Assembly: GCA_946616835.1 (NCBI GenBank)
Contig: CAMOJK010000020.1
Coordinates: 1-33,292, forward strand
Source: an uncultured Lachnospiraceae bacterium
Lineage (GTDB): Bacteria > Bacillota > Clostridia > Lachnospirales > Lachnospiraceae
DNA length: 33,292 nt
Direction of reading: 5' to 3'
Position 1 is the first letter of the stretch. Every line of letters starts with the position of its first letter. Both the position numbers and the translations under genes were made by a program. The notes under the pieces were generated by a model. It did no database searches. It worked only from the letters and a program-made list of their open reading frames with translations, and was not told the origin of the DNA. Of this stretch, positions 1-6,029 are shown in pieces.

Positions 1-1828
1 GGCCCTTTGCCCTGAATGGAAGCCTGTTTCCTCTTGGCAGAAGATAAGCATGTTCTCTTTTGATGCTTAAACTGTCCTCTATCATGCCGTCAGTTATGAG
101 AAGTATCGGGGCATCCTTCGGGAAGTCATCTGCATGCTGCAGCAGGTCTACAGCCGGCTGAAGCACCGTCCCTCCCCGGCCTTTCACCTCTACCCTTCCG
201 GCAATATCGCCCGGCGATATATATCCTGCATCATAAGCCTCGGCATCACAGAAAACTACCCTTGCATAAGGTACCTCCTTTGCCTCTGAATAGCTAGCTA
301 TGGCTCCCAGCGCATAGCCTATGGTTTTGGCACTCATTGATCCGGAAGTATCCACTACCACTCCGTATGTCCGGCTGTATTCCGGTATGTCTGCCGGAAC
401 GTATCTGGGCCTTGGGATATCGGGTGAAGCACCCTGCCTTCTGCTTGGCCTTGCATAGGTATGCCTGGCCTCAAGGGGTTTGAAATATACATCAAACCAC
501 TTGCCAAGCTCCACGTCCCAGGGGATCGGAGGCATTGCAAGAGCCCTTATTTCTTCAATGAGCCCTGCCGGTATCAGTCCTCTCCCCATCCCCAGATGGT
601 ATTCAAGCCCCTGCTGAAGCGCATTCCTGCAGAAATCATCAAGCTTCATTCCTGCAGCACCGTTCTTCCTTTTCCCTGTGTCTTCGCTGAAAAAGTCACC
701 CTTGCCGTAGCCGCAGAAGGTTGACAGCTTCCTGTATTTCCTTATTTCCTTTACAATACGGTCATATATTTCTTCTGCTGACATTCCCTTAAGCTCAGGA
801 TCATAAAGAAGCGTATCACCCGGCATGCTGCCGATACGCATCTCATGAAGCCATCCGTTTATCACGTAGTCGCAGGCCACGTTCCACAGATACCCGTCAC
901 GCCCCTGGCACCGTCCGGCATGATCAAGCCCTGCATGAAGGTACTCATGCGCAAGCACAAACTTAAGCTCCTCTTCCTTTAAGCCGGCTGCCGGATTGAC
1001 ATATATTTCCCTTGCCGTCACGTCAACTGCCGCAACGGATATTTCATTCCTTACGCAGTACCGGCTGTCCTCAATTACCTTAAAACCGGCTGCCAGCCCT
1101 CCAAGCAGGGGATAGTGGCTTATGAACCAGTTTGCAGCCCTTACTGACGCTGTTTCCGTTTTAGGATCACGGTATGAATGGCCTCCTGCATCGCTTACTG
1201 TCTGCGAAACGGAATGTACCAGAGCCCTTGCGAACATGGCTGACGGCGTACCGTTCTTCTGCCAGTCTTTATAAACGACTGGCTTGTCCAGCCCCTGCAT
1301 GTCCGGCTGACCCGGCAGCGCAGTACCGAAATGAAGCCCATCAGGGATGCCACGTTCCTTAAGATGCCAGTATATCTTAAGCTCGCTGTCGCCGGCAGCC
1401 TCCATGCCTGCTGTGTCGCTGCATACAGGGCGTCCAAATTTCACGTCTGAAAGGAAGCGTGCAATGTATATGTCGCACGCTGCATTCCAGAGAAACGGAT
1501 CGAACGACACCTGCCGCTTTACGCTCCCGTCAGACATGAGCTTGTCAAAGGCCGGAAGCTTATCTTCATCAAAATGCCCGAAGGCATAATGAAGCTTGCA
1601 GTGGGCTATCATATATGCCCATTCCTCCGGGGAAAACGGCACGTCCCTGTTTAAGTATATCCGGCCATCCCTGTCAGCGATGGCCGGTGTCTTTCCCATC
1701 TGGTCCTTACCTCTCTCATAACAGCCTCCGTACAACCTTGAGAATAACGGGCTGTTTTTTACTATTTCGATTCCGGCAAGAAGGGCCTCCTCATTGGGTT
1801 TTATCCTCTTTTTTTCATTTCTGTTCAT
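1..1828 (-). CDS. Metallopeptidase-like/VWA-domain protein (DUF2201 type), C-terminus cut by window edge
   Basis: 609 codons are visible and the frame stays open to base 1, so the end lies outside. The ATG at 1828 follows AGGTGG by about 5 bases. A zinc-protease-like HEYLH motif sits at residues 294-298, followed by LWNVACDYVINGWL. A von Willebrand A domain begins near residue 490, with a MIDAS motif DTSGSM (493-498) and later GGT and ITDG. An earlier segment, HCKLH (76-80) plus LWNAACDIYIARFL, looks like a degenerate copy of the protease-like half that lacks the catalytic Glu. The gene starts 8 bases after the moxR-like stop, the usual partner of VWA proteins. By analogy with MoxR-VWA pairs it probably acts as an adaptor or effector of the ATPase; its substrate is unknown. 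Family assignment is good, function is inference. Confidence 0.85.
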   Translation of the reverse strand, partial: MNRNEKKRIKPNEEALLAGIEIVKNSPLFSRLYGGCYERGKDQMGKTPAIADRDGRIYLNRDVPFSPEEWAYMIAHCKLHYAFGHFDEDKLPAFDKLMSDGSVKRQVSFDPFLWNAACDIYIARFLSDVKFGRPVCSDTAGMEAAGDSELKIYWHLKERGIPDGLHFGTALPGQPDMQGLDKPVVYKDWQKNGTPSAMFARALVHSVSQTVSDAGGHSYRDPKTETASVRAANWFISHYPLLGGLAAGFKVIEDSRYCVRNEISVAAVDVTAREIYVNPAAGLKEEELKFVLAHEYLHAGLDHAGRCQGRDGYLWNVACDYVINGWLHEMRIGSMPGDTLLYDPELKGMSAEEIYDRIVKEIRKYRKLSTFCGYGKGDFFSEDTGKRKNGAAGMKLDDFCRNALQQGLEYHLGMGRGLIPAGLIEEIRALAMPPIPWDVELGKWFDVYFKPLEARHTYARPSRRQGASPDIPRPRYVPADIPEYSRTYGVVVDTSGSMSAKTIGYALGAIASYSEAKEVPYARVVFCDAEAYDAGYISPGDIAGRVEVKGRGGTVLQPAVDLLQHADDFPKDAPILLITDGMIEDSLSIKREHAYLLPRGNRLPFRAKG

Positions 1829-1836
1829 TGTGCCAC

Positions 1837-2904
1837 CTATGTCCTGTTCACCAGCCTCGGAAGGTCGCGGACTATCTCTACCATGAACCAGTCAGGGAGC
1901 TTTCCGTCTTCATCTGCGGCTACTGTCATCTGTGCAAGCTCATAGCTGATCTGGGAAAGCTCCTTTATCAGGGCCTTGGCACGGTGAGCAAGGAACTGTC
2001 CGTCCTTTCCCAGCTTTTCCTTGTTCTCCGGAAGCTCCTGGATGAGCTTTGCCCTGAAGGACTGCGTAAGGAAATAAAGGGTATCCCTGTCCTCCGGCTT
2101 TGCGCTCCACCTTGCCTCCCCTTTTATGATCGAGCTCAGCATGTCCTTGTTGCCGAGCGTCTTTATGAACGCAAGGAACATTCCTGCGTGCGAAGCGCTG
2201 ATGCTTCCGTAAGCAAGGACCCGGAGCGTCTCATTGGACACGCTGTTCCCGTCCTCTCCTGCATGGTATTCCTTGAGCGCATCACTGAGCATATGCCAGC
2301 TCCTTGGGGTTGAATAAGGCTCCTCGTTCTTGGTCGGCTCGCTGAAAAGATGGTCCGGGCGCTGGGTGATATAGCTGATCACCCAGGGATGTATGTCATT
2401 CTCATACGCCCAGTCCAGCCACTGGGAGTTGTCTGCTGTCAGCTGCACATGGAACATACGGTTTATGAGCGCCGTTGACATGGTCTTTACTATTGCTCCG
2501 TCCTGTGAACGGTTGCCGGCACCTATCACTACGCTTCCGGTCGGAAGACGGTATTCTCCCACCCTTCTCTCATGTATGAGGCTGTAGAACGCCTTCTGCA
2601 CTTCCTGGGAGCATGCGTTCAGCTCGTCCAGGAACAGCACGTAAGGCTCCTTCCTCGCGATCATCTTAGGCGGCAGGAATTCCGAGGTCTCCCCGTTAAT
2701 CCTGGGTATGCCTATTATGTCCTCCGGTGCCAACTGGGAGCCGAGTAGCGACACGCACTCCATCCCGACCTCATCTGCAAATTTCTGCACCAGGGCAGTT
2801 TTTCCTATCCCCGGTGCTCCCCATATGAATACGGGGCGCGTGGGCGCGATATTCAGAAGAATATCCGATAATTCATTCTGTGTTACTGTAAACGGTAAAT
2901 TCAT
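1837..2904 (-). CDS. MoxR-like AAA+ ATPase
   Basis: 355 residues. Walker A is GAPGIGKT (29-36), Walker B VLFLDE (89-94), and a sensor-like GNRSQDG segment follows, the layout of MoxR/AAA_5 ATPases. The ATG is preceded by AAAGGAAAGGAAAAAT, a good ribosome binding site. It lies 19 bases after rtcB and 8 bases before the VWA gene, so the three are almost certainly co-transcribed. MoxR ATPases generally work as chaperone-like remodelers with a VWA partner, sometimes helping to insert metals or assemble complexes. Here the partner is the downstream metallopeptidase/VWA protein. What the pair remodels is not known; the link with RtcB suggests an RNA or ribonucleoprotein role, which is inference. 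Confidence 0.9.
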   Translation of the reverse strand: MNLPFTVTQNELSDILLNIAPTRPVFIWGAPGIGKTALVQKFADEVGMECVSLLGSQLAPEDIIGIPRINGETSEFLPPKMIARKEPYVLFLDELNACSQEVQKAFYSLIHERRVGEYRLPTGSVVIGAGNRSQDGAIVKTMSTALINRMFHVQLTADNSQWLDWAYENDIHPWVISYITQRPDHLFSEPTKNEEPYSTPRSWHMLSDALKEYHAGEDGNSVSNETLRVLAYGSISASHAGMFLAFIKTLGNKDMLSSIIKGEARWSAKPEDRDTLYFLTQSFRAKLIQELPENKEKLGKDGQFLAHRAKALIKELSQISYELAQMTVAADEDGKLPDWFMVEIVRDLPRLVNRT

Positions 2905-2923: not shown

Positions 2924-4039
2924 TCAGGCGCTGCCTGCCTTGAAACTGTAAACCGGTTTTATCACTTCCGTGATATCAACGCTGTCTTTTATCGCTTCCT
3001 TGATCTCGTCTATGCTCCGGTACGCAAAGGGTGCCTCATCCAGGGTATCCTTTCCTATTGACGTACAGTAAATTCCCTGCATGGATTTCTTGAATTCTGA
3101 TACTGTATGCCTGTTCATTACATCTTCGCGCTTAAGTACCCTTCCTGCCCCGTGGGGAGCCGAGCAGTTCCATTCATGATTTCCCTTTCCTTTCCCGAGT
3201 ATTATGCCGTCACGCATATTGATCGGTATTATCACCTGCTCGTCCTTTCTGGCTGATATTGCGCCTTTCCTTATCATGGGTACATCGCTGCTTATGTCTA
3301 TATAGTTGTGCACGCAGCTGCAGCGCTCCGTTTCCTTCCACTTCATGCCTCTCAGTATCTCATCCAGCATTGCCCTACGGTTCAGTGCAGCATATTCCTG
3401 CACTACGGCTACATCCTTTATATATTTTTCTGCAAGTTCCCCCTCAAGGTATGTCATCTCGTAAGGAACATCTATCCCTTGTTTTTTCAATGCCTTCTGG
3501 CCTTCCTTGAGATAGTATTCTGCTACTTCCTTTCCAAGATGCCGGCTCCCCGAATGTACCACCACATAGAGAGATCCGTCTTCTCCCCGGTCTGCCTCGA
3601 TAAAGTGGTTTCCTCCTCCCAGGGTGCCTATGCCAAGCATCGCCTTCTCAAGCCTGATATGCTCGGCGCATTCAAGCCTTGCAAAATCAAAGTCTGCGGC
3701 AAATCTGTGCATGTCGCTCCGGATAGCACTTCCTGCCGGTATCCTTCTGTGTACCAGCTTGTCCAGCTGGGCGCAGTCCAGCCTCTTTTCCTTTATCTTT
3801 ACGGCAGACATCCCGCATCCTATGTCAACGCCTACAACCGACGGCAGGATGCGTTCTGTAATGGTTGCCGTAAAGCCGACGGGGCCTACCTTTCCCGGAT
3901 GTACATCAGGCATTACACGGATCCTGCTCCCCTTAAAAGACATGTCATCACAGAGGAGCTTTATCTGTGCCAGAGCATAGTCTTCCACACTGTCAGAATA
4001 GACCAGTGCAGAAGCATACTTTCCTTCTACTGTTTTCAT
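2924..4039 (-). CDS. rtcB: RNA-splicing ligase RtcB family protein
   Basis: 371 residues. RtcB enzymes join RNA ends bearing 2',3'-cyclic phosphate or 3'-phosphate to 5'-OH ends, using GTP and manganese. All key motifs are visible: DIGCGM (72-77, metal-binding Cys75), GGGNHF (141-146), HSGSRH (162-167), VHNY (His244), RKGA (257-260), and HGAGR (296-300), whose His is the expected guanylylated residue. The frame is open 24 codons further upstream, but the ATG at 4039 has AAAAGGAAAATTAT in front of it, while the upstream ATG lies in the terminator hairpin. It is slightly shorter than the roughly 400 to 480 residues of well-known RtcBs. No archease or RtcA gene is visible beside it. First gene of the operon with the MoxR-like and VWA genes. 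Confidence 0.95.
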   Translation of the reverse strand: MKTVEGKYASALVYSDSVEDYALAQIKLLCDDMSFKGSRIRVMPDVHPGKVGPVGFTATITERILPSVVGVDIGCGMSAVKIKEKRLDCAQLDKLVHRRIPAGSAIRSDMHRFAADFDFARLECAEHIRLEKAMLGIGTLGGGNHFIEADRGEDGSLYVVVHSGSRHLGKEVAEYYLKEGQKALKKQGIDVPYEMTYLEGELAEKYIKDVAVVQEYAALNRRAMLDEILRGMKWKETERCSCVHNYIDISSDVPMIRKGAISARKDEQVIIPINMRDGIILGKGKGNHEWNCSAPHGAGRVLKREDVMNRHTVSEFKKSMQGIYCTSIGKDTLDEAPFAYRSIDEIKEAIKDSVDITEVIKPVYSFKAGSA

Positions 4040-4101
4040 ATAATTTTCCTTTTCTATTTTATGTGTGGAAATATCTGAATGCCGGCATGACGGCCGGACA
4101 T

Positions 4102-4129
4102 AAAAATACATCCCTCGACAAGGGATGCA
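4102..4129 (-). terminator. Intrinsic terminator in the rtcB leader (candidate attenuator)
   Basis: On the minus strand TGCATCCCT (4129-4121), loop TGTCG, then AGGGATGTA (4115-4107) make a 9-bp stem with one G-U pair, followed at once by TTTTT (4106-4102). It lies after the promoter and leader ORF and about 60 bases before the rtcB start. It would therefore stop rtcB transcription unless prevented. A second short CCGGC/GCCGG hairpin follows at 4082-4097. Confidence 0.7.
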
Positions 4130-4140
4130 AAGATCATAGC

Positions 4141-4200
4141 TGTCTGATTCAATACTGTACGACAGACGCCGTATTAAGTGTCAGCCTATACTATCAGACG
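4141..4200 (-). promoter_or_regulatory. Alternative base-pairing elements in the rtcB leader
   Basis: Minus-strand RNA carries GTCTGAT (4199-4193), then a second copy of GTCTG (4167-4163), then ATCAGAC (4148-4142). Either of the first two can pair with the third, 7 bp or 5 bp, so they compete. The first copy overlaps the end of the 24-codon leader ORF, so ribosome position could choose between the two folds. That layout is typical of translation-coupled attenuation. The pairings are seen; the switching is inference. Confidence 0.4.
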
Positions 4201-4260
4201 GATGACCTGCACCCTGTCATTAACTGTTGCATGTTTTGTATTGTTCATTTTTGATTGCAT
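4186..4260 (-). CDS. Putative 24-residue leader peptide upstream of rtcB
   Basis: The ATG at 4260 is preceded by a strong AAAGGAGGATGGCC site. The frame runs 24 codons to a TAG at 4186-4188. The peptide begins MQSKMNNTKHATVNDR and ends VIRLIV. No family is recognised and there is no signal peptide or membrane segment. The strong ribosome site in a leader that ends in an intrinsic terminator suggests a regulatory ORF. It has no obvious run of one amino acid; Asn-Asn and a few basic residues are the only mild bias. Confidence 0.5.
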   Translation of the reverse strand: MQSKMNNTKHATVNDRVQVIRLIV

Positions 4261-4304
4261 GGCCATCCTCCTTTCTTTTGGCTTAAAAATTTATGTTACT
4301 GAAC

Positions 4305-4333
4305 ACTATAATATCCTATGCTGTTTTTGTCAA
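4305..4333 (-). promoter_or_regulatory. Sigma-A type promoter of the rtcB operon
   Basis: On the minus strand TTGACA (4333-4328), a 17-base spacer, then TATAGT (4310-4305). It is the best -35/-10 pair upstream of rtcB. The start would be near 4298, giving a leader of roughly 260 bases before the rtcB ATG. Confidence 0.8.
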
Positions 4334-4429: not shown

Positions 4430-4552
4430 CTATCGAAATATCTCCAAATAAATCTCTTCGCCATTTTGTATAGTCAATAAAGAATCATCATAATCAAAAA
4501 TGCCGGTGCAACCTAATGCACCGGCACACATGTCACTTAGATATCCAAACAT
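4430..4552 (-). CDS. Small hypothetical ORF, possibly a decayed gene end
   Basis: 40 codons from an ATG at 4552 (GGAG ten bases upstream) to a TAG at 4430. It begins MFGYLSDMCAGALG and has DYDDSLLTIQNGEE in its second half, which reads like real protein. Just past the stop, another frame continues IVHTLDEIH before its own stop, consistent with an old frameshift. It contains the 4501-4526 hairpin, which can instead be read as a terminator, and overlaps another small ORF (4533-4676) in a different frame. Not recognised. Either coding remnant or chance. Confidence 0.3.
   Translation of the reverse strand: MFGYLSDMCAGALGCTGIFDYDDSLLTIQNGEEIYLEIFR
4496..4526 (-). terminator. Probable terminator after the ParDE-like module
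   Basis: A perfect 10-bp stem, TGCCGGTGCA (4501-4510) and TGCACCGGCA (4517-4526), has a 6-base loop and is followed on the minus strand by TTTTT (4500-4496). It ends the transcript of the toxin-antitoxin pair and would isolate it from the rtcB promoter. It also falls inside a small open frame, so it is not beyond doubt. Confidence 0.75.
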
Positions 4553-4676
4553 TTTCTGTTCGCTCCATTTTTCTGTTTGCAACTAGTGAACTTAATATTG
4601 TATAGATATCAGATTCTTCTTCAATCAAAAGTATAACTAATACATTCTCGTAGAATCTTCTGCCAATTTCGCTCAT
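4533..4676 (-). CDS. Small hypothetical ORF overlapping the toxin gene end
   Basis: 47 codons from an ATG at 4676 inside the toxin gene, in another frame, to a TGA at 4533, only 7 bases before the terminator stem. It begins MSEIGRRFYENVLV and contains EEESDIYTILSSLVANRKM. A weak AGGG lies about 9 bases before the ATG. Composition reads like protein beyond the toxin stop, and it sits exactly between toxin and terminator. It may be a small third gene of the module or a chance frame. Confidence 0.3.
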   Translation of the reverse strand: MSEIGRRFYENVLVILLIEEESDIYTILSSLVANRKMERTENVWISK

Positions 4677-4956
4677 GACGAAGAACCCTGATTATATATA
4701 CTGTCCTACTATTATCGTCAACAAAGTAGAAAATAATGGATGGATCGAACAGTTTTTTCAGAATTAACTTCTTTCGATAGTAAATCCCTGTTCCAGTGTA
4801 CAACCGAAACTCATGACCAAGTGCATTTCCTTCCACATCAATTTCATCATTGAATCGGTCCGCACGCTCTCTTCCAAATCGAAGTTCAATGTAATCCGCT
4901 ATGTCAGCTACGTCATAAATAGCCTCCCGTGACCATGCTACACTATAATCACCCAT
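4621..4956 (-). CDS. RelE/ParE-family toxin
   Basis: 111 residues, the usual size for this toxin family. The start reads WSREAIYDVADIADYI, the N-terminal helix typical of ParE/RelE; the end has VYIIRVLRHERNW, matching the family's last strand and conserved basic residues. The ATG overlaps the antitoxin gene by 8 bases (toxin ATGGGTGA within the antitoxin stop region), a translationally coupled toxin-antitoxin layout. Whether it attacks gyrase (ParE) or ribosome-bound mRNA (RelE) cannot be told by eye. Confidence 0.8.
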   Translation of the reverse strand: MGDYSVAWSREAIYDVADIADYIELRFGRERADRFNDEIDVEGNALGHEFRLYTGTGIYYRKKLILKKLFDPSIIFYFVDDNSRTVYIIRVLRHERNWQKILRECISYTFD

Positions 4957-5346: not shown

Positions 5347-5748
5347 CTACTCAGTCCAGTTTTCAACTTTGAGGTCACTCACTCTTTTGAATTCCTTCAC
5401 ATTGTTAGTGACAACCTTATAACCCAAAGACATTGCATGACCGGCAATCATCATATCGAGTGGGCCTATCGGTGTTCCCTTTTTCTCCAGATCCGCTCTA
5501 ATCTTTCCGTAGCATTCAGCAGCATCTACATCAAAATCCAGTATTTCGATATTTGCCAAAAGCAGAGAAAGCGCAAGTCTATTCTTATCAATGGCTGCAC
5601 TTTTCTCGACACCATGCACAAGCTCTGCGTATGTTATAGATGATATACATACATCAGCCGGATCAACTTCCTGTAATTTCTGAAACACCTTTTCCGGCTT
5701 ATGCTTAATTGCATAGATGCATATATTGGTATCAAGCATATATCTCAT
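5347..5748 (-). CDS. vapC: VapC-type PIN-domain ribonuclease toxin
   Basis: 133 residues. It has the PIN-domain acidic residues Asp6 (MLDTNIC), Glu42 (SITYAELVHG) and Asp98 (GPLDMMIAGHA), then TNNVKEF (114-120) at the usual fourth site. VapC toxins cut initiator tRNA or rRNA. Its start overlaps the end of vapB by 4 bases (the ATGA arrangement). The family and pairing are clear; the RNA target is not predictable. Confidence 0.92.
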   Translation of the reverse strand: MRYMLDTNICIYAIKHKPEKVFQKLQEVDPADVCISSITYAELVHGVEKSAAIDKNRLALSLLLANIEILDFDVDAAECYGKIRADLEKKGTPIGPLDMMIAGHAMSLGYKVVTNNVKEFKRVSDLKVENWTE

Positions 5749-5975
5749 AACGATTCACGCTCCTGTACCATATCCTTTGTCCTTCCTTCCGCCATGAAAT
5801 CATCAGAAAACATGTCTATTGCTCTCATAAAAGAATCCCACTTATTTTGCTTTGGAAGCAGAATTACGATATCTCCTATTTTATTCACCATGACCTCATC
5901 TGATGAAAAACGACATTCCTTTGGAAGTCTGACTGCCTGACTTCTTCCATTTTCAAAAACCTTTGCTGTCATCAT
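5745..5975 (-). CDS. vapB: VapB-type AbrB-fold antitoxin
   Basis: 76 residues. The motif KVFENGRSQAVRLPKECRF is the swapped-hairpin (SpoVT/AbrB) DNA-binding domain of VapB antitoxins; the acidic C-terminal half would bind VapC. The ATG at 5975 has GGAAGGTG upstream; the longer open frame to 6029 would run through the promoter and is unlikely. It probably represses its own promoter through the inverted repeat at 6001-6020. Confidence 0.9.
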   Translation of the reverse strand: MMTAKVFENGRSQAVRLPKECRFSSDEVMVNKIGDIVILLPKQNKWDSFMRAIDMFSDDFMAEGRTKDMVQERESL

Positions 5976-5999
5976 ATTGATCACCTTCCTTTCACTTTT

Positions 6000-6029
6000 A
6001 GTATATACCAAGATATAGACCAAAATCAA
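6000..6029 (-). promoter_or_regulatory. vapBC promoter with overlapping operator-like repeat
   Basis: On the minus strand TTGATT (6029-6024), an 18-base spacer and TATACT (6005-6000). The spacer holds an imperfect inverted repeat, GTATATAC, CAAG, ATATAGAC (6001-6020), matching at 6 of 8 positions. AbrB-fold antitoxins commonly bind such repeats, so this is a plausible autorepression site. Confidence 0.55.

Follow-up and report, generated by a model that had tools for sequence, protein, structure and literature searches.

The window analysed here is the whole 33,292-nucleotide stretch of contig CAMOJK010000020.1 from an uncultured Lachnospiraceae bacterium. On its minus strand lies an operon for the RNA ligase RtcB and two partner proteins, preceded by a leader that contains a short open reading frame (ORF), an intrinsic terminator and the strands of two helices, P1 (anti-antiterminator) and AT (antiterminator). 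The parts are as follows.

4305..4333, minus strand: promoter TTGACA-17-TATAGT, with TTGACA at 4333-4328, a spacer of 17 and TATAGT at 4310-4305
4267..4273, minus strand: Shine-Dalgarno (SD) sequence AAGGAGG of the leader ORF, unchanged across the 12 rows of alignment A2
4186..4260, minus strand: leader ORF of 24 codons (MQSKMNNTKHATVNDRVQVIRLIV), ATG at 4260, stop codon TAG at 4186
4256..4268, minus strand: putative 5′ strand of P1 (end of the SD and start codon), from folding and covariation
4200..4211, minus strand: putative 3′ strand of P1, within the leader ORF, its bases shared with AT, from folding and covariation
4193..4215, minus strand: putative 5′ strand of AT, from covariation; its last 7 nt, GUCUGAU (4193-4199), include the first pairing arm of an earlier note
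4121..4148, minus strand: putative 3′ strand of AT (AUCAGAC...AUGAUC..UGCAUCCCU), from covariation; its end is the 5′ arm of the terminator
4102..4129, minus strand: intrinsic terminator, a 9-bp stem including one G-U, then T5
2924..4039, minus strand: rtcB, RNA ligase, ATG at 4039 after AAGGAAA (Pfam RtcB, E 7.8e-57)
1837..2904, minus strand: MoxR-like AAA ATPase, second gene (Pfam AAA_5, E 1.8e-13)
2..1828, minus strand: DUF2201_N metallopeptidase-like and VWA-like protein, third gene, running off the contig end; the VWA-like part is below the Pfam cut-off

The promoter matches the consensus at 11 of 12 positions and ranks first among 6 promoter-like sites in 2.8 kb, a number equal to the shuffled expectation of 6.3. 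An extra in-frame ATG lies two codons 5′ of ATG 4260, and by another count the terminator stem has 10 pairs and a 3-base loop. The earlier note, made from the letters of the window, had described a near-consensus promoter, a 24-codon ORF with a strong ribosome site, a 9-bp terminator with T5 and a first pairing arm (GTCTG, 4199-4195) overlapping the end of the ORF, and all four are present at these positions. A small hairpin (4097-4082) follows the terminator, also inside the span marked by that note. The window contains no tRNA. Beyond the rtcB promoter, farther upstream on the minus strand, are a ParE-like toxin gene (4621-4956), a PIN-domain (VapC-like) gene (5347-5748) and an antitoxin-like gene (MazE, below the Pfam cut-off; 5745-6029). 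Between the ParE-like gene and the promoter stands a hairpin of 11 pairs (4500-4527, minus strand), strong and terminator-like, that ends in a T-rich tail. That a toxin of RNA-cleaving type adjoins an RNA-repair operon may be a coincidence.

Relatives were taken as the best 80 of 389 rtcB loci, of which 79 were examined beside the window (L065 has no upstream DNA and was set aside); the nearest named ones in this set are mostly Lachnospiraceae and Ruminococcus records. The attenuator layout of leader ORF and terminator before rtcB, proposed in the earlier note, proved to be conserved. In 59 of these 79 loci (best 80 of 389) and in the window, making 60 of 80 sequences, rtcB is preceded by a leader ORF of the SD-ATG pattern, 22-33 codons long. 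The terminator is present in 58 of the 60 leaders (absent in L062 and L078), and a promoter-like site occurs within 95 nt upstream of the leader SD in 52 of the 60, against 10.4 expected from mononucleotide shuffles. Three more leaders were recovered by covariance model R1 among 11 pattern misses searched. The leader of L112 stands directly before rtcB, and those of L115 and L118 are each separated from it by one gene: a 304-codon ORF, kinase-like by eye (L115:1960-2997), and a MATE transporter gene (L118:1388-2973). Nine other misses searched with model R2 gave no match, and 17 of the 79 relatives (best 80 of 389) are without a detected leader. All nine same-genus rtcB loci (L002-L010) match R2 at E 2e-9 to 0.003, and all nine carry a Cys-rich gene of 62-71 codons between leader and rtcB; the small protein of L002 has no match in Pfam.

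When 1,105,692 bases on both strands of 81 sources (the window and L049-L128) were scanned for SD-ATG, short ORF, P1 and terminator in this layout, 54 distinct places were found, comprising 51 rtcB leaders, L115, L118 and one other, on the other strand of L056. The same locus has a RAGATH-18 RNA (L056:1005-1071, minus strand; Rfam RF03064, 67.6 bits) on the strand opposite to the rtcB leader, about 1.7 kb away from it. A DNA search with the window's leader in 299 family genomes returned, besides itself, short matches of 22-64 bases in 17 genomes, and a search against plasmids returned none. We regard it as very probable that the leader is real, conserved and an attenuator. The leaders fall into a GGUGA type (Ruminococcus) and an AAGGAGG type (mostly Lachnospiraceae), the latter including the window. 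Alignment A1 holds 33 of 40 GGUGA-type leaders and A2 holds 12 of 16 AAGGAGG-type leaders, aberrant ones being omitted; in both, conservation lies mainly in the SD, the AUG, the helix strands and the terminator. A third alignment, A3, holds 36 R2 matches (33 distinct) and was fitted to P1 and the terminator, not to AT.

In P1, the SD and AUG of the leader can pair with the complementary 3′ part of the same ORF. The strands are GGUGAACACCAUG with CAUGGAGUUUGCC in the GGUGA type, GGAUAACC with GGUUAUCC in the AAGGAGG type, and GGAUGGCC.AUGC with GCAGGUCAUCC in the window. The duplex energy falls below that of dinucleotide shuffles with z < -2 in 54 of the 60 leaders (median z -3.1). In A3, 89.9% of the P1 cells pair, two-sided change is seen at 7 of 8 pairs, and the covariation score is 0.379, compared with 0.235 (sd 0.023) for shuffled and at most 0.097 for slid alignments, although the fit of A3 to P1 and terminator favours the P1 count and the shuffles ignore relatedness. 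Scored over P1, P2 and the terminator, A1 shows two-sided change at 9 of 23 pairs and a score of 0.161, where shuffling gives 0.113 (sd 0.006) and sliding no more than 0.100, but one slide yields 8 two-sided pairs. For P1 alone in this GGUGA-type alignment, two-sided change is found at 2 of 12 pairs, and 5 are invariant. Strands were also exchanged between leaders in a swap test, whose set was reduced from 45 matches to 42 distinct ones and, after removal of 5 lacking the SD-ATG pattern and 9 lacking a terminator, to 28. Its outcome for P1 is modest, the leader's own strand ranking in the best 5% in 7 of 28 and, for the GGUGA type, in 1 of 40.

The reading frame gives a further line of evidence. 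Leaders were picked by the SD-ATG pattern and P1 energy with the frame ignored, and frame 0 is open through the 3′ strand of P1 in 60 of 60, compared with 1 for frame +1 and 7 for frame +2, counts in which the relatives are non-independent. Frame +2 is the fairer control because frame +1 is often closed immediately by the TGA within ATGA. The stop codon follows 0-27 nt beyond the P1 3′ strand. A conserved small ORF had been put forward in the earlier note as a check on its proposal, and these counts supply it. They also weigh against another account of the leader, in which it would be a ligand-binding riboswitch or a protein-binding leader with the SD and AUG incidental. Conserved helices and a terminator are features of riboswitches too, and AAUA in the middle of the ORF loop, nearly invariant in the 33 Ruminococcus-type (GGUGA-type) leaders of A1, is unexplained by P1, AT or the terminator. 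Nevertheless, with the frame open in 60 of 60, with other conservation lying mainly in the SD, the AUG, the helix strands and the terminator, and with no Rfam family at gathering score (0 matches in the window; none at the leaders of 12 loci, T-box included), we consider such an account very improbable.

The second helix, AT, would join the 3′ end of the window's ORF (4215-4193) with 4148-4121, up to and including the 5′ arm of the terminator. Folded alone, the 95-nt AT stretch of the window reaches -31.3 kcal/mol (z -2.7), and in the shuffle test the helix reaches -28.0 kcal/mol (z -2.7). Of 16 AAGGAGG-type leaders, 15 have an AT better than its shuffles (z < -1.65; median -2.9), and of the 42 remaining leaders, the GGUGA group, 8 do (median -0.5); one of these 8, L069, nearly duplicates L068 and is of AAGGAGG type by its SD. 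In this comparison the AT strand of L061 was placed by hand, and L062 and L078, which have no terminator, were left out, as they were from the ribosome-free and start-masked folds described below. An AT confined to the terminator arm had been tried and was abandoned (median z -0.8 in 58 leaders); once the tested strand was lengthened upstream, the long AT emerged, and this in the AAGGAGG type only. In the swap test the own strands of AT average -24.7 kcal/mol against -17.0 for swapped ones and come within the best 5% for 18 of 28 leaders, where 1.4 are expected; the GGUGA type gives 3 of 40. Similarly, in A3, which was not fitted to AT, 80.2% of the AT cells pair, and two-sided change is seen at 6 of the 10 core pairs, a number also reached in 42 of 500 shuffles. 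The covariation score of AT is 0.173; shuffled alignments give 0.127 (sd 0.013) and slid ones no more than 0.085. The covarying stems for which the earlier note had advised a search are therefore found both in P1 (7 of 8 pairs) and in the AT core (6 of 10). The leader SD is imitated by AGGAUA, frequently found before the terminator, so that UUAUCC has two possible partners. As read from the sequence, AT is mutually exclusive with P1 and with the terminator in the window's branch.

The earlier note had placed the choice between structures elsewhere, in two exclusive pairings of GTCTG with CAGAC. Both alternatives do exist in the window, CAGAC at 4146-4142 being able to pair with GTCTG at 4199-4195 (the ORF end) or at 4167-4163, but GUCUG:CAGAC was rejected as the switch because GUCUGAU:AUCAGAC folds with P1 and the terminator and also in the antiterminator state. 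The whole leader of the window folds as P1, a middle stem containing GUCUG:CAGAC, and the terminator; in the AT fold the middle stem is retained and the 3′ strand of P1 is used. In an alignment with two same-genus leaders the alternative arm 4167-4163 has no counterpart. The exclusive pair is P1 versus AT, which the earlier note had missed. What sequence comparison establishes is the set of elements, the competition between two helices, selection on the reading frame and the link to the operon.

The effect of a ribosome was calculated by masking its footprint codon by codon in 27 of 39 leaders, those with the terminator 10-100 nt after the stop codon; the folds are at equilibrium and nested, and they permit P1 to close around a ribosome in mid-ORF, an arrangement that is sterically doubtful. 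For the window, the predicted probability of the terminator is 0.93 without a ribosome. It lies at 0.20-0.31 with codons 1-5 in the P site, is 0.49 with codon 6 there and returns to 0.85-0.93 for codon 7 and all later ones. Averaged over the 27 leaders, the probability is 0.66 with no ribosome and 0.35 with one at codon 1. With the ribosome at codon 1, 11 of 27 leaders drop by more than 0.3 and 16 of 27, for example L063, do not; from codon 6 onward, drops of that size are confined to 0-3 leaders. In L168, the closest relative of the window's leader, the terminator probability falls at codons 15-24 too. Of 17 AAGGAGG-type leaders, whose mean goes from 0.80 to 0.43 when the start is masked, 8 drop by more than 0.3; of 41 GGUGA-type leaders, with a mean of 0.93 both before and after masking, none does. 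Because none of these 41 drops, the claim of read-through is limited to the window's branch, where it is probable from the modelled folds that the polymerase would read through when a ribosome is held near the leader start.

The following course of events may be proposed, in which we infer the direction of the response, the translation of the ORF and the inducing condition. Without a ribosome, the SD and AUG would pair with the 3′ part of the ORF as P1, so that the antiterminator strand is occupied, the terminator forms and transcription would end before rtcB. A ribosome running through the ORF would cover the 3′ strand of P1, AT could not form, and the terminator would again win. A ribosome held at the start or the first codons would keep P1 open and leave its 3′ strand free; the freed strand could then pair with the 5′ arm of the terminator as AT, and RNA polymerase would read into rtcB. 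Because only a ribosome held early would open P1 and leave the 3′ strand free, the signal would be slow or arrested early elongation, as might be caused by ribosome-targeting drugs or by loss of tRNA. We put at roughly 0.7 the probability that, in the window and its AAGGAGG-type branch, the leader is a ribosome-mediated transcription attenuator of the rtcB-AAA-DUF2201 operon.

A response of the opposite sign is also conceivable. P1 and AT might coexist as a pseudoknot in the absence of a ribosome, and failed translation of the leader would then give read-through. Inspection by eye of several AAGGAGG-type leaders places AGAGG, where AT is strongest, immediately 5′ of the P1 3′ strand, without any need for the two to overlap. 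However, the second half of AT and P1 share the UUAUCC strand, and nested folding of 58 leaders without a ribosome gives mean probabilities of 0.62 for P1 and 0.90 for the terminator. This arrangement is accordingly held to be quite unlikely, and read-through on early ribosome arrest is kept as the preferred reading for the window's branch.

The Ruminococcus branch may employ a further helix. In its GGUGA-type leaders the 3′ strand of P1 also pairs, as P3, with a segment between the terminator and the rtcB SD; in L125 the strands are GUUUGCCUGUAUA with UAUACAGGCAGAC, and L087, L116 and L119 are other examples. P3 ranks in the best 5% of the swap test in 9 of 40 GGUGA-type leaders versus 1 of 13 of the AAGGAGG type. 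In the GGUGA type the rtcB SD is predicted to be equally open with and without masking (0.48-0.53).

The genes that follow related leaders elsewhere bear on what is sensed. In 397 family genomes, with few candidates scored per genome, R2 gave 39 matches at E <= 0.01. At E <= 1.2e-7 there are 21 loci (one per genome, the window included), of which 16 precede rtcB and 5 an AAA gene, the latter being the next ORF of at least 80 codons in L145-L148 and L155; L137, L141 and L143 have the same scores and places as L056, L057 and L055. In L138 and L150 rtcB is shortened, and the leader there still matches the model. Among weaker R2 matches, L158, L159 and L161 lie before rtcB, L160, L162, L163 and L164 at other genes, and L165 and L166 have no rtcB by tblastn. 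Within the genus, 9 of 35 genomes have an R2 match at E <= 0.001, all of them among the 10 with this rtcB (E < 1e-140); the tenth, G030, has a weak match in its rtcB locus (E 0.003), and the other 25 have none at E <= 0.001. Two of the genus genomes, G001 and G005, contain two leaders each, one upstream of rtcB and one, much like that of the window, before an AAA gene (L168, L169). The window's own genome also has a weak match, L167 (E 0.3). In G009 a weak, remnant-like R2 match with its terminator precedes an AAA gene (L179:52-201; E 0.003 in 3 kb), and L179 has an inverted repeat at its contig end; L180 gave no R2 match.

Model R1 matches 8 of the 397 family genomes. In L129 (around 1501-2958) the leader precedes an MFS gene (Pfam MFS_1), distantly like Mef with a score far below the cut-off of the Mef(A) model, and in L130 (around 1501-1691) an ABC-exporter-like ORF, so judged by eye; neither locus contains rtcB, nor was rtcB found by tblastn at the matches L131-L136. 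Leaders before MFS, ABC-exporter-like and, as in L118, MATE genes point to general translation stress or ribosome-targeting drugs.

The earlier note had suggested, in particular, that the leader detects cut tRNA. In such a variant the same attenuator would be tuned to RNA damage, the loss of tRNAs cut in the anticodon loop stalling the leader ribosome and inducing the ligase. The regulated enzyme mends such cuts, and the Salmonella rtc operon is reported to respond to tRNA fragments (PMC7790460). Asn is also commoner in frame 0 of the ORF loop, at 14.5% against 6.9 and 8.1% in the other frames. The excess is nevertheless mild by a positional model (109 seen, 85.9 expected), Tyr, Met and Phe show a greater one, and no run is formed; a test of the trp type found no run of codons for a single amino acid shared among the leader peptides. 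A codon or amino-acid signature in the ORF was weak and was dropped. The peptide itself is not conserved, the same RNA strand being read in different frames as KHGVC in most GGUGA-type leaders and as TWSLP, SWSLP or AWSLP in five others, and the transporter genes behind R1 leaders do not suit a damage sensor either. Tuning to RNA damage rather than to general translation stress is thus unlikely, the suggestion of cut-tRNA sensing in particular was not upheld, and general translation stress fits better.

Known leaders lend a precedent to the proposed logic. In the vmlR leader of B. subtilis, for which an anti-antiterminator/antiterminator/terminator logic is reported, a uORF lies inside the anti-antiterminator hairpin together with a competing antiterminator and an intrinsic terminator, as here, and a ribosome stalled at the uORF causes read-through, as is predicted for the window's leader (PMC9226507). 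However, the uORF of vmlR has 3 codons and that of rtcB leaders 22-35, its SD lies in a single-stranded region rather than within P1, and the controlled gene is an antibiotic-resistance ABCF rather than an RNA ligase; the two are likened by parts and logic, not by descent. P3 of the Ruminococcus branch resembles a pairing near the gene SD in vmlR read-through transcripts (PMC9226507). Similarly, bmrB-bmrCD of B. subtilis has a leader ORF, translated there, with predicted anti-antiterminator, antiterminator and terminator, and slowed ribosomes cause read-through into a drug-exporter gene, of the kind found beside a few leaders here; the bmrB ORF has 53 residues and itself contains the terminator, whereas that of rtcB leaders follows the stop codon (PMC4191407). 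The uORFC-6-1 motif, mostly of Bacillales, is a uORF-based candidate attenuator before hflX, a rescue gene for stalled or damaged ribosomes (PMC8632094). The gene differs from rtcB, the likeness is one of description, and rtcB does not occur in the main text of that paper. Enterobacterial RtcR, like this leader, makes rtcB inducible, there by broken tRNAs, but is a protein activator binding tRNA fragments, unlike an RNA leader (PMC7790460). The RtcR family was found in none of the 35 genus genomes (the window's own genome is 86% complete), and among 14 control genomes E. coli was positive. Judged by titles and the beginnings of abstracts in the open-access literature, no rtcB leader of this kind is described among the matches listed, in agreement with the earlier note, nor is any switching of rtcB in bacteria without RtcR.

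A broader reading would make these leaders an undescribed family of attenuator RNAs in Lachnospiraceae and Ruminococcus that links rtcB and its AAA/VWA partner to translation failure and senses the state of the translation apparatus, such as tRNA loss by anticodon nucleases or damaged ribosomes, rather than drugs; we hold this to be doubtful. If true, it would be an RNA-only counterpart of the RtcR system. The AAA/DUF2201 module would likewise be tied to translation stress, since it has its own copy of the leader, apart from rtcB, in two same-genus genomes. For many gut and rumen bacteria the leader offers a concrete, testable answer to how rtcB may be induced without RtcR, and RNA repair would then be controlled in the manner of some drug-defence genes.
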